From: a virus
Virus record (IMG/VR): IMGVR_UViG_3300021376_000043
Span: 1-64,000 of that record
DNA: 64,000 nucleotides
Direction: 5' to 3' (one strand)
Position 1 is the stretch's first letter. The number at the start of each line of letters is the position of its first letter. A model generated the notes under the pieces. The model made no database searches, was not told where the DNA came from, and was given only the letters and a program-made list of their open reading frames with translations. Below, piece after piece: positions 1 through 4,453 of the stretch. The translations under genes and the position numbers were made by a program.

Positions 1-236
1 TTCAAGCACCGTTAATCGATAAATCTAAAGCAGAAATTATAAAATTAGGTATAAAACTAGGAGTAAATTTTAAGAATACCTGGACATGTTATGAAGGAGA
101 AGAACGAGCTTGTGGTGAATGTACAGCTTGTTCTTTAAGAATAAAAGGCTTTATAGATGCCGGTTATATAGACCCATTACCCTATAAAATTTCAATACCT
201 TGGGAAAAATATAAGTGTAAAAATATTACTGTTTAA
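1..236 (+). CDS. queC: 7-cyano-7-deazaguanine synthase QueC, C-terminal part
   Basis: Only the last 77 or so residues lie in the window, read in frame 3 and ending in TAA at 234-236. The translation contains APLIDKSKAEIIKLG, then TWTCYEG, then a four-cysteine cluster (C-x7-C-x2-C-x2-C) followed by SLRIKGFIDAGYIDP. This is the C-terminal signature of QueC, which makes preQ0 (7-cyano-7-deazaguanine) from CDG, ATP and ammonia; the cysteines bind structural zinc. In phages preQ0 usually feeds 7-deazaguanine insertion into DNA rather than tRNA queuosine. The next plus-strand gene, at 1218, is a class II glutamine amidotransferase, which fits a preQ0-to-amidine (dG+) branch. The family call is firm; the DNA-modification role is inferred because DpdA and the other Que enzymes would lie outside the window. 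Confidence 0.9.
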   Translation, partial: QAPLIDKSKAEIIKLGIKLGVNFKNTWTCYEGEERACGECTACSLRIKGFIDAGYIDPLPYKISIPWEKYKCKNITV

Positions 237-250
237 TTTTTGAAACTAAA

Positions 251-1168
251 TTAATCTCCGTAACTAAAACCACCTGCATCATAGCCACGACGACCGCCTA
301 TAGCGCCCATGGATCTTAACTCACTAGTTACATCATCATCCTCAGGATAATCTTCAACATTTGGCGCCTCACCGGTACCTTCACCCTCTTTTTGCTTAGC
401 TTCTTCTGAAGGTATATAACTGTTTTTATATTTTAAAGAGTCTATAAAATCAGTAACCAATTCTTTATCTTTAGCTTTAGACTCATCAAAGGCTCTAGTT
501 ATAGCTTCAATAACCTCATTTCTTAATTCCGGTGAATCATATAAATCACCCTTACTAACAGTAATTTCATCAGGCAATTCAACAAATATAGGCTGCCACT
601 CTTTAATAAATCTGACTGCAGAATTTTTTACAAAAGATTTTTCACCCGATACTGAAGCAGGTGTCGTAGGAGTCGCAGGGGTTGAATCACCTACCGGTGC
701 ATTAGTAGCTTTACCCTCTACACCTGCAGTTACAGCTTGCTTAACCTGAACCGGGCTAGCAACAGCACCACCTTCAACATCAACTCTCAATACATTTAGT
801 AAGTTGTCAACCACTCTTGCTGTATATCTCGCTTCTGTTGATCCGAGTTTAAGCTCATTTTTAATGAGATTTTCTAATTCAGATCTAAATTTCATTTTAC
901 TTCCAGGGTAATAAAGCTGATATTCTTTACCATCAACTGTATGTGCTTCGGGCTTAAAGAGCTTAGTCTTTATAACATTTAATAAATGATTTGCTATCTC
1001 TGTCTTTGATTTATTTTCTCTAGCTGCAGCCTTGCCTATACCATAGCCTTTACCCGGGGCCTTTTCTATATCACCGGTATACCCTAAGTCGTCCGCGTAA
1101 ATAGGTGCTTCTGATACGACTTTCTTATTTAAATAGGCTTCGAAAATAAACTTTGTATCTTTGTTCAT
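251..1168 (-). CDS. putative internal head protein with capsid-targeting-like N-terminus
   Basis: This 305-residue protein matches no family I recognise. It opens MNKDTKFIFEAYLNKK. The IFE-A tripeptide at residues 8-10 matches the (L/I)xE cleavage rule of T4 prohead protease gp21 and resembles the start of T4 internal proteins (MKTYQEFIAEA). The middle (about 130-170) is a low-complexity Ala/Thr/Pro/Ser linker, and the C-terminus is acidic then Gly-rich (YDAGGFSYGD). It is a single minus-strand gene with its own late-type promoter at 1176-1183, 7 nt from ATG, and no Shine-Dalgarno. It runs convergent to queC. A late, packaged head-interior or scaffold protein is the best guess; mass spectrometry of virions would settle it. 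Confidence 0.6.
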   Translation of the reverse strand: MNKDTKFIFEAYLNKKVVSEAPIYADDLGYTGDIEKAPGKGYGIGKAAARENKSKTEIANHLLNVIKTKLFKPEAHTVDGKEYQLYYPGSKMKFRSELENLIKNELKLGSTEARYTARVVDNLLNVLRVDVEGGAVASPVQVKQAVTAGVEGKATNAPVGDSTPATPTTPASVSGEKSFVKNSAVRFIKEWQPIFVELPDEITVSKGDLYDSPELRNEVIEAITRAFDESKAKDKELVTDFIDSLKYKNSYIPSEEAKQKEGEGTGEAPNVEDYPEDDDVTSELRSMGAIGGRRGYDAGGFSYGD

Positions 1169-1183: not shown

Positions 1184-1201
1184 GTTTCTATTATAATATT
1201 T

Positions 1202-1209
1202 AAGGAGGT
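1202..1209 (+). promoter_or_regulatory. strong Shine-Dalgarno deciding an ATT start
   Basis: AAGGAGGT sits 8 nt before the ATT at 1218. It is the strongest Shine-Dalgarno in the window and overlaps an in-frame TAA at 1209-1211. That leaves ATT as the only credible start for the amidotransferase with Cys at position 2. Confidence 0.8.
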
Positions 1210-1217
1210 AATATACT

Positions 1218-1898
1218 ATTTGCGGAATATTTGGATCTAAAGAGTTTAACAATTATGTTAAACTCTATAAGAATAATAAGAAAAGAGGTACTTTCTCTTA
1301 CGGCGGGCTTTTGATAAACACAAAGGTACATGCTATCCTTAAAACAGCTGGTGTTACTAGTCTCTCTAATAAGCTTACCATTGAATACGGTAAGAAGAAA
1401 AAGTCTATTACCGATTTTAACTATTTTCTAGGACATACACAAGCACCAACCTCTGCACAAAGATCTTATACACCACAAACATCACATCCTTTTCAATACA
1501 AGGATTGGATAATAGCCCACAATGGGGTTCTTACGAATGATAAGGGTATTAAGAATAAATTACCAAACAAAAAATCATATAACACAGTTGACTCTTCTGT
1601 TATTGCTCCATTAATTGAGATGAATTTCTTAAAATATGATGATGAAATTACTGCCATAGTAAAAGCGCTTTCAAGTTTACAAGGAACGTTTGGTGTTTGG
1701 ATTTTTAATCAAAAATCCGGTAACATTTATATTGCTCGCTCTGGTAGTACATTGTATGCAGATTTCTTGAATAATTCATTTTCCTCTCTACCCGAAAAAG
1801 ATTATGTTGCACTTGAAGAAGGACTGCTCTATCTTCTCACAAAAGAAGGAATAACCAGCGTTGGTAAATTTACGACCAACTCACCATTTTTTACATGA
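1218..1898 (+). CDS. class II glutamine amidotransferase (ATT start)
   Basis: Extending upstream of the first ATG (1311) in frame gives a start Ile codon (read as Met) followed by CGIFGSKEFNN. This is the classic N-terminus of Ntn-type class II amidotransferases, whose Cys2 is the nucleophile releasing ammonia from glutamine. An in-frame stop at 1209-1211 and AAGGAGGT at 1202-1209 pin the start to ATT 1218, giving 226 residues. Further family motifs are GHTQAPTS (about 72-79) and HNGVLTN (about 101-107). There is no fused synthase domain, so it must pass ammonia to a partner. QueC lies one gene upstream, and the GAT-QueC pair known from archaeosine and phage dG+ synthesis is an attractive match. 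The stop overlaps the next ATG by 4 nt. Confidence 0.85.
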   Translation: MCGIFGSKEFNNYVKLYKNNKKRGTFSYGGLLINTKVHAILKTAGVTSLSNKLTIEYGKKKKSITDFNYFLGHTQAPTSAQRSYTPQTSHPFQYKDWIIAHNGVLTNDKGIKNKLPNKKSYNTVDSSVIAPLIEMNFLKYDDEITAIVKALSSLQGTFGVWIFNQKSGNIYIARSGSTLYADFLNNSFSSLPEKDYVALEEGLLYLLTKEGITSVGKFTTNSPFFT

Positions 1899-2566
1899 AA
1901 ATAGCTGTATACAGTGTAACAAGAAATAAAATTACTGATACCATCTTACATAAGAGCGTTTATCCTTTAGATAAAACATTTGACTTTTACTGCACAGAAG
2001 ACAATACAACAGGACTTAGTAAGAGGTATAATTTATTTTTATCAACAAAAGGCAAGGAATATGATTATGTTGTCTTTGTTCATGACGATGTATTTTTAGA
2101 TGATAAAAGAATGGTTGAAAAACTTTCGAGAGCTCATAAAGCTTATGATATTGTAGGGCTAGCTGGTGGTTTAAATCCAAAAATAACTCAACCTGCATTA
2201 TGGCACTTGATGTGCGGAGGGTTTAGCGGCGGTAATCTCCGAGGTGCGGTGGCACATCCTTGCTCTAAAGAACAGTTAATGGTTACCAATTTTGGCCCTT
2301 CGCCTGATAGAGTTGCAATTTTGGACGGACTTTTTTTAAGTGTTGATGTAAGAAGAGTAAATTCAGTAGGCTGGAAGTTTAATGAAAATTACGACTTTCA
2401 TCATTATGATATTGCTAGCTGTATAGATGCAAATAAAAAACAACTTAGATTAGGAGTAGCACCTCTATGGGTGGTCCATATTTCTCCTGGTCTCCTTGAC
2501 GTGAATGATGAAAGATTTGTAGCTAGTCAAGAAAAATTTTTATCAGAATACAGTAGTAACAAGTAA
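1895..2566 (+). CDS. glycosyltransferase, GT-A fold, StrF-like (Glyco_tranf_2_5 type)
   Basis: The 223-residue protein has the layout of the StrF-like glycosyltransferases: an N-terminal MKIAVYSVTRN strand, DYVVFVHDDVFLDD (acidic nucleotide-sugar/metal motif near residues 60-70), then DIVGLAGG and DGLFLSVD, with YDFHHYDIASCIDAN toward the end. That C-terminal FHHYD resembles the xFHxYDxD box of this family. It overlaps the amidotransferase by ATGA, so the two are translationally coupled. The acceptor could be a modified base, a virion protein or a host surface sugar; nothing here decides it. The family call is good at fold level; the donor sugar is unknown. Confidence 0.7.
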   Translation: MKIAVYSVTRNKITDTILHKSVYPLDKTFDFYCTEDNTTGLSKRYNLFLSTKGKEYDYVVFVHDDVFLDDKRMVEKLSRAHKAYDIVGLAGGLNPKITQPALWHLMCGGFSGGNLRGAVAHPCSKEQLMVTNFGPSPDRVAILDGLFLSVDVRRVNSVGWKFNENYDFHHYDIASCIDANKKQLRLGVAPLWVVHISPGLLDVNDERFVASQEKFLSEYSSNK

Positions 2567-2587: not shown

Positions 2588-3910
2588 ATGGGGAAATTAG
2601 ATTTAGATTATTTTGAGACAGTAATAGCGTACAAGAGTCTTACAGATGAAACATATCTAGCTTCTGTTGTTGATTACATTAAACCTATATATTTTAAAAA
2701 TAATGATATTAAAGCCATTTTTCAAATTATTAGCGACTTTTACGAAAAGAGAAGTACAAAGCCAACTATAACTGAAATAAAATCATACTTAGTTACTGAT
2801 GAACTCAAGACATCTTTAAAAAATGTTGTCAGTTTGTTTGCAGGAATAGATAAAAATCTGAATAATGATGAACTCTCTACAAACACAGAAGTGTTTTTAA
2901 AAGAGAAAGCCGTTTATCATACCATGATGGATGTGGTGGATGACATTAATAAAAATTCAGTAGATACATCTAAAATTTTAACTAAATTTGAAAAAGCTTG
3001 TAATATTTCCTTAGCAACAGACATTGGTTTAGATTTATTTGTAGATATTGATAAGATTGTTGATGATTTAAACACCACTGAAAAATATATACCAACGAAA
3101 TGGAAATGGCTTGATGATAAAATCGGCGGCGGGCTTTTAGAAAATGGAAGATCATTGTATTTGTTTGCAGGAGAGACAAACATAGGTAAAAGTATCTTTT
3201 TAGGAAACGTTGCCATAAATTTAGCAAGTCAAGGCAAGACTGTTCTTCTCGTCTCTCTAGAAATGCCAGAAATGATATATGCAAAGAGACTATGCTCTAG
3301 TGTTTCAAAGATTCCATTAAGCCAGCTCAAGATAGAATCAAGCACGTTACAAAGTCAGATATCTGAATACTGTGTAGAGAACCCCACATCAAAAATAATT
3401 ATTAAAGAATTTCCTCCTGCATCAATTACTGTAAATAATCTTAAAGCTTTCATAAAAAAACTTACACAAAAAGGCATTAAGATTGACGCTATTGTACTAG
3501 ATTACGTTAACCTGCTTCTATCTACTGTAGGGGATACTAGTTATGAGAGAATTAAGATATGTACAGAACAACTCAGAGCTTTATCCTATCAATTTAACTG
3601 TCCTGTAGTATCTGCGACACAGTTGAACAGAGATGGATATGAAATATCTGACCCCGGTCTTAAGACAATTTCAGAAAGTATAGGGCTTGCTATGACAGGC
3701 GACGTAATATTAAGTATTTGGCAAGAAGATACTGATAAAGAACTAGGAGTTATAAAGATGGGACTTATGAAAAACCGGTTTGGACCTAACTTTGGACACT
3801 GTTCTATGCGAATAGATTACTCTACATTAACCATTACTGAGGATGAACATATTAATGATACAGAAGGGAGCGCATCGTCAATAAACACATTAACTAAATT
3901 ATCGTTGTAA
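2588..3910 (+). CDS. gp41: replicative DNA helicase, T4 gp41-like (DnaB superfamily)
   Basis: This 440-residue protein has an N-terminal helical domain (about 1-130, primase/loader contact) and a RecA-like motor. Walker A is GETNIGKS at about 195-202, followed by LVSLEMPEMIYAKRL, which is typical of DnaB-type helicases. Walker B is AIVLDY near 302-306, and SATQLNRDG supplies the sensor/H3 region. It unwinds the lagging-strand template and works with the primase at 9207, the clamp at 6408 and the SSB at 5123. The length is close to T4 gp41. ATG 2588 is chosen because TATAAT lies exactly 6 nt upstream; a nearby ATG at 2580 is out of frame. Confidence 0.92.
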   Translation: MGKLDLDYFETVIAYKSLTDETYLASVVDYIKPIYFKNNDIKAIFQIISDFYEKRSTKPTITEIKSYLVTDELKTSLKNVVSLFAGIDKNLNNDELSTNTEVFLKEKAVYHTMMDVVDDINKNSVDTSKILTKFEKACNISLATDIGLDLFVDIDKIVDDLNTTEKYIPTKWKWLDDKIGGGLLENGRSLYLFAGETNIGKSIFLGNVAINLASQGKTVLLVSLEMPEMIYAKRLCSSVSKIPLSQLKIESSTLQSQISEYCVENPTSKIIIKEFPPASITVNNLKAFIKKLTQKGIKIDAIVLDYVNLLLSTVGDTSYERIKICTEQLRALSYQFNCPVVSATQLNRDGYEISDPGLKTISESIGLAMTGDVILSIWQEDTDKELGVIKMGLMKNRFGPNFGHCSMRIDYSTLTITEDEHINDTEGSASSINTLTKLSL

Positions 3911-3951: not shown

Positions 3952-4266
3952 GTGAAAGGCTTTGATCCCTCAGAACATATTACAGATTACGAGCTTACAC
4001 ATCTATTTCTATCTTTTTGCTCTTTTGTAACACTTATACACACAAAAAAGCTTAATTTAGCTAATGTGTTTATATGCATTTTAAAAGACCAAGTAGTAAG
4101 AGATCTTTTTACTTTATATTGTGATTTAAAAAATGATTTTACAGCTGTAAAATTCTTTTTACAATTTGATTCTAGCTTATATAAAAGTAAATATGTAATG
4201 AAATATTTAAACAACGCAAAAAAGAAAAATAAATCTTATGAGTTATATAGTACACGCAGAAGTTAA
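3952..4266 (+). CDS. hypothetical protein between helicase and bS21-like gene
   Basis: The gene encodes about 104 residues from GTG 3952, or two more from TTG 3946; neither has a Shine-Dalgarno. It is mostly helical (DYELTHLFLSFCSFVTLIH, then Lys-rich NNAKKKNKS). I do not recognise a family. The N-terminal KGFDP followed by an LTH tripeptide recurs in the small protein at 7492, which may be chance. It overlaps the bS21-like gene by 29 nt, so the two are probably read from one mRNA. An AATAAATA element lies at 3924-3931, but 20 nt from the GTG, outside the usual spacing. Confidence 0.6.
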   Translation: MKGFDPSEHITDYELTHLFLSFCSFVTLIHTKKLNLANVFICILKDQVVRDLFTLYCDLKNDFTAVKFFLQFDSSLYKSKYVMKYLNNAKKKNKSYELYSTRRS

Positions 4267-4453
4267 ATTAAACACCAAGAAGAGCACTGACAAAGCTTAT
4301 TTTGAAAAAATGTATAATAAGTTTAATAGAGAATTTATGCAATCGGGTGTTATAGAGCAGTTAAAATTAAAAAGATGTTTTTATAAGCCTAGCGTACTTA
4401 AAAAGGTTAAAAAAGAGCTTGCAAAATTTAAGTGGAAGTACTACAATTATTGA
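4238..4453 (+). CDS. rpsU-like: phage-encoded ribosomal protein bS21-like
   Basis: The 71-residue basic protein aligns by eye with bacterial bS21: FEKMYNKFNREFMQSGV corresponds to the FDxALRRFKRSCEKAGV block, and LKRCFYKPSVLKK to RRREFYEKPTTERKR. A Lys-rich C-terminal helix follows. bS21 sits on the 30S platform near the anti-Shine-Dalgarno end of 16S rRNA and takes part in initiation. Phage homologues are known from several large or marine phages. It overlaps the gene upstream by 29 nt and abuts the gp59-like gene (stop 4453, ATG 4454). Its presence matters because most genes here seem to lack leaders and Shine-Dalgarno sites. Similarity is short but falls on the conserved core. Confidence 0.75.
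   Translation: MSYIVHAEVKLNTKKSTDKAYFEKMYNKFNREFMQSGVIEQLKLKRCFYKPSVLKKVKKELAKFKWKYYNY

Follow-up and report, generated by a model that had tools for sequence, protein, structure and literature searches.

The window analysed here, a stretch of 64,000 nt, belongs to a 70-kb viral record. It carries a gene for a stand-alone glutamine amidotransferase (Gat), which also occurs in identical form in an 84.7-kb contig. The gene and its surroundings comprise the following features:

3..235, + strand: C-terminal part of QueC, truncated where the contig ends (PF06508 at G000:3-161, E 1.4e-19)
251..1168, − strand: conserved ORF separating Gat from QueC, without a PHROG match
1192..1197, + strand: TATAAT promoter-like box, 20 nt before the ATT, a putative promoter with the predicted mRNA 5′ end just before the Shine–Dalgarno (SD) sequence
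1202..1209, + strand: SD sequence AAGGAGGT, 8 nt before the ATT, forming a −12.5 kcal/mol duplex with the assumed 16S tail
1209..1211, + strand: in-frame TAA, 6 nt (two codons) upstream of the ATT, with the same spacing in L001 (identical gene)
1218..1220, + strand: ATT start codon, kept in every homologue of at least 66% identity; other homologues have ATG in this position
1218..1898, + strand: Gat, a class II (Ntn) glutamine amidotransferase of 226 aa encoded as a stand-alone protein, with its Cys codon at 1221-1223 and a TGA stop at 1896-1898
1311..1313, + strand: TTG, the first in-frame ATG/GTG/TTG; a start here would lose the Cys
1895..2566, + strand: next ORF, overlapping the Gat stop (ATGA), glycosyltransferase-like by eye, no PHROG match
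2588..3910, + strand: DnaB-like (T4 gp41) replicative helicase (phrog_19, E 5.9e-68)
4238..4453, + strand: phage-encoded ribosomal protein bS21 (PF01165, E 5.2e-8; PDB matches include F. johnsoniae bS21, 7jil)

The Gat protein and its ATT start codon

The protein matches the Pfam families GATase_6 (1.9e-8) and GATase_7, both over the cut-off, and a profile of the Gat family compared with the PDB matches GFAT, GlmS and PurF. Its AlphaFold (AF2) model has a pLDDT of 89.7, with E. coli GlmS as the best fold match (Foldseek E 7.5e-13). Profile and model together support the initial annotation of the product as a class II (Ntn) glutamine amidotransferase. The glutamine-site motifs GH.QAPT, HNG and D are present and align with GFAT by profile, with residue-level roles that are presumably those of GlmS. 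Across 15 divergent Gat rows there is no variation in the Cys, the GH(T/N)QAPT stretch or the AHNG motif, and in 313 out of 313 aligned rows the Cys immediately follows the start codon, as ATT-TGC in the ATT lineages and as ATG-TGC or ATG-TGT in the others. Among named phages, a search for Gat gave nothing beyond two weak matches, both to Listeria phage records without annotation.

A class II amidotransferase needs its Cys as the first residue once Met is removed, and the start codon can therefore be read directly from the sequence. Around position 1200 this sequence is TATAATATTTAAGGAGGTAATATACT-ATT-TGC-GGA-ATA-TTT-GGA. The initial annotation had read it as (M)CGIFG, starting at the ATT with Cys as residue 2, and had pointed to a TAA in frame 6 nt before the ATT and to an SD sequence 8 nt upstream; each of these was found in place. 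Only the first in-frame ATG had been misplaced: the codon at 1311 is TTG and the first in-frame ATG lies at 1620 (residue 135), so that no ATG could save the enzyme. With a stop two codons upstream and a first canonical codon that already removes the Cys, no in-frame ATG, GTG or TTG keeps the protein functional. An alignment of homologues, proposed earlier as a check, gave ATT in all relatives at 66–100% identity and ATG at exactly the same codon in more distant ones, and none of these close relatives uses an ATG elsewhere. The comparison thus confirms ATT 1218-1220 as the genuine start codon of the window Gat gene.

The ATT region of Gat is unstructured (z +1.46), and no RNA structure hiding the start was found. 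A general non-AUG habit of the phage was also considered and rejected, since among the 82 window ORFs with homologues that were screened only Gat stands out by a long conserved sense N-terminus before any ATG, GTG or TTG, the other matches being judged antisense or short by eye.

Start codons and Shine–Dalgarno sequences of the Gat family

In 19 of 19 close viral relatives, ATT-TGC is found with AGGAGG upstream. A first alignment-based scan for further homologues used a pattern that included Ile at residue 1, and because of this bias three further, start-independent scans were run with queries beginning at the Cys. The 138 distinct viral Gat homologues comprise 51 genes with ATT and 87 with ATG. 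Pairing with the presumed 16S tail is strong for every ATT gene (−10.2 to −16.9 kcal/mol in 51/51), whereas the ATG genes have a median of +0.5 kcal/mol and only four of them reach −9.8 kcal/mol or below (Mann–Whitney p 3e-21, relatedness ignored). The earlier proposal of a strong SD making up for the weak ATT codon is thus well supported by this comparison. Individual pairs show both combined and partial change: the closely related L326 (ATG, no SD) and L340 (ATT, GGAGG) differ in both traits, while L335 (ATG) and L329 (ATT), like L406 (ATG) and L394 (ATT), are close pairs in which both genes have an SD. Judged from these alignments, the ATT start of phage Gat is real, conserved, recurrent and tied to a strong SD.

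The base at −1 is T in 49/51 ATT genes and in 45/87 ATG genes, compared to 51% of starts genome-wide. A U at this position helps weak start codons by pairing with A37 of the initiator tRNA. A GGAG pattern scan of viral contigs yielded, among the matches listed, new GATase loci with 17 ATG, one TTG and no ATT starts. Among cellular GATases, three pattern matches with an ATT start came from a collection of bacterial genomes. Two of these are short ORFs due to chance. The third, a single case, is the GlmS of a Candidatus Daviesbacteria MAG (L148, from 5458), which seemingly starts with ATT-TGT after AAGGAGGT.

The initial annotation had described the SD as unlike the rest of the window, and this holds: 3/49 window genes pair at −7 kcal/mol or below compared to 1/49 mock sites, and none reaches −9. 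In nine phage genomes of the Gat family, SD use at gene starts equals the mock-site background, which makes the Gat SD exceptional, and this in ATT lineages of more than one kind.

The tree of 132 Gat proteins needs at least 11 start-codon changes, a count that rests on a quick gene tree. Among seven independent pairs on well-supported branches, the SD follows ATT in four to five, the reverse occurs in none and the rest do not differ; with four to five informative pairs a sign test is not significant. The proteins L313, L329 and L337 are moderately similar, yet about 100 nt of DNA upstream of their genes is 87–92% identical, a similarity that fades further upstream, most clearly for L313. This shared DNA includes an 11-codon ORF ending in YSNRRGG, with its TAA 4 nt before the ATT. 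It is probable from these alignments that the Gat control region moves between phages by horizontal exchange; the 11 changes would then not all be separate mutations and independent origins would be fewer. The near-identical cassette of ~100 nt with the leader ORF precedes divergent Gat genes in L313, L329, L337 and L342-L344; in L343 the leader reads MNNIYSNRRGG and its last codons are the SD, so that it could act by coupling.

The ATG relatives of Gat have a TATAAT 5–10 nt before the ATG, as do FolE, QueD, QueE and a polymerase gene in G002. If TATAAT is a −10 box, all these mRNAs are predicted to be nearly leaderless, and initiation in that state strongly favours AUG (PMC9031893, PMC5622118). 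The box of the main ATT clade lies 18–20 nt before the start with the SD in between, which would place the SD at the extreme 5′ end of the mRNA. More generally, 10–16 genes per genome or sample in G002, G003, G005 and G016 have a TATAAT 4–10 nt before the ATG, in some of them including DNA polymerase, helicase, FolE, QueD and QueE, and near-leaderless transcripts may be widespread in these phages.

The 7-deazaguanine pathway genes

QueC adjoins Gat in all 13 records examined. QueD is found in 11 of these, the two records without it being fragments of 70 and 85 kb, and in G002 FolE and QueE lie near QueD. Gat and QueC thus occur together with the preQ0 genes (FolE, QueD, QueE). The family phrog_10428 aligns to Gat at 75-157 and to QueC at 254-461 and, by these alignments, is a Gat-QueC fusion spanning both genes. 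This fusion is absent here, where two separate genes are parted by the opposite-strand ORF at 251..1168; with this ORF in between, Gat probably needs its own promoter. The best reading of the gene content is that Gat and the adjacent QueC correspond to the phage Gat-QueC archaeosine enzyme split in two. The pathway product would probably be archaeosine (dG+), which is a prediction since DpdA was not found in searches with Pfam TGT and 9g DpdA. In phage 9g, Gat-QueC serves dG+ synthesis (PMC6884629), and there too a class II Gat and QueC occur with FolE, QueD and QueE. The QueC studied here is 29% identical over 213 aa to the C-terminal half of the 9g protein, and Gat is weakly similar to its N-terminal half. 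Unlike in 9g, Gat and QueC are separate and split by an opposite-strand gene, and no 9g-type DpdA was detected.

Proposed rewiring of initiation, alternatives and known systems

We think it likely that a near-leaderless AUG start was rewired to SD-dependent AUU initiation within a split Gat-QueC pathway, with the output of Gat lowered or gated as a result. Gat would be a stand-alone subunit that cooperates with its neighbour QueC in modifying the phage DNA with a 7-deazaguanine, probably archaeosine (dG+). Its translation would begin at AUU with formyl-Met, and the later removal of Met would free the catalytic Cys. The presumed ancestral layout had a TATAAT promoter so near the start that the mRNA was nearly leaderless and AUG was needed, an arrangement that the ATG relatives, and likewise the FolE, QueD and QueE genes of the same phages, seem to retain. 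In the ATT lineage, some 10–14 nt with a near-perfect SD would have been gained between promoter and start and AUG have changed to AUU. Initiation would then be driven by pairing between SD and anti-SD plus the U at −1, while the weak codon would keep output low and dependent on the SD and on discrimination by IF3. A lower Gat output from the ATT start would fit the precedents: in S. aureus reporters, AUU and AUA starts with an extended SD reach about 10% of the AUG level (PMC13009471).

Bacteroidota ribosomes ignore the SD because their anti-SD is sequestered, and a free anti-SD improves the translation of strong-SD mRNA (PMC9976891). The phages studied here resemble freshwater myoviruses that encode bS21, for which Bacteroidetes hosts are predicted (PMC9723584). 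When infC was classed in 29 Bacteroidota genomes, 21 showed an SD-like motif preceding ATC, ATT or ATA, with no in-frame ATG upstream of the conserved region, so that initiation on AUH codons with an SD seems possible in such hosts. Within the infC loci L477-L506, the apparent start in most of the 29 classed genomes is ATC after AGAGG or GAGGT, and no paper on such a start turned up in the literature collection searched. The phage bS21 of the window (4238-4453) and its relatives have an invariant KWK(Y/F)Y tail, and a second, different phage bS21 type without the KPS motif occurs in relatives (L466 and L467, from G013 and G015).

It is rather unlikely, in our estimate, that Gat is timed or gated like the host rpsU, its SD and AUU being translatable only by ribosomes with a free anti-SD, either lacking bS21 or carrying the phage bS21. 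Such a private channel would suit phage genomes that make no use of the SD, the preference of free-anti-SD ribosomes for strong-SD mRNA and the predicted Bacteroidetes hosts. It would also suit the bS21 gene 2.3 kb downstream of Gat, which has F. johnsoniae bS21 among its closest PDB matches and in whose phage homologues the residue aligning with Y54 of that protein is F, Q or N. However, the SD-bearing state does not track phage bS21, the window type being present in ATG sisters without an SD and missing from other ATT lineages; for this reason bS21-linked control was rejected as the cause of ATT. Moreover, a Bacteroidota host is a supposition, and the bS21 proteins of G013 and G015 look different. 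A wider proposal, which we put forward only tentatively, is that in SD-ignoring hosts the SD and AUU bar normal SD-blind initiation, and that only ribosomes with an exposed anti-SD (or under low IF3) would make the last DNA-modification enzyme, the switch having been acquired repeatedly and partly by exchange of the upstream cassette.

We consider it unlikely that the start codon simply drifts once a strong SD is present, ATT being merely one tolerated codon. Neutral relaxation of this kind would account for the fact that ATT is never seen without an SD, and for the intermediates with ATG and SD beside ATT sisters (L335/L329 and L406/L394). On the other hand, all 51 non-ATG starts are ATT, with no GTG, TTG, ATC, CTG or ACG among the 138, while elsewhere 363 changes from ATG to GTG and 113 from ATG to TTG were counted against a single one from AUG to AUU in 61,358 starts (PMC5622118). 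Translational coupling would mean that ribosomes arrive at the ATT by reinitiating behind a short upstream ORF and not by de novo initiation. It finds a candidate in the 11-codon ORF of the apparently exchanged cassette; it is very improbable, because the window and the main clade have no such ORF and are instead preceded by the opposite-strand gene and the promoter-like box. A true start at TTG 1311, where gene callers would report a 195-aa ORF, or an assembly or sequencing error at 1220 can practically be dismissed: residues 2-31 are conserved at the protein level in all homologues, ATT recurs in Gat genes on contigs from many samples and the start of the ATG relatives falls on this very codon.

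The rarity of AUU starts is illustrated by the single change cited above, the only one in that survey; the tree of this one phage gene family requires at least 11 ATT/ATG changes, every ATT with a strong SD. Because its Cys has to be residue 2, the Gat family is a natural start-codon reporter and exposes starts that gene callers overlook. Two questions can be tested directly with it: whether the SD still offers a way to address hosts that are blind to it, and how a phage balances preQ0 synthesis against its conversion to archaeosine.

Several known genes share parts of this arrangement. In Flavobacteriales, rpsU with its extended SD is likewise a single strong-SD gene in a genome where the SD is otherwise unused (PMC9976891); unlike Gat, it encodes bS21, by which it is regulated. 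infC (AUU in E. coli, AUA in S. aureus, AUC in Bacteroidota) likewise combines a clear SD with an AUH codon as the only start. It autoregulates via its own product, whereas phage Gat is a metabolic enzyme, and control by a phage IF3 was rejected since no phage infC was found in 13 records. A conserved non-AUG start is likewise present in S. aureus cvfC1 (AUU) and ccpN (AUA), both with a strong SD (PMC13009471), and in E. coli pcnB (AUU). These three are cellular genes of SD-using bacteria, whereas Gat is a phage gene in genomes without SD use and has switched repeatedly between ATG and ATT.
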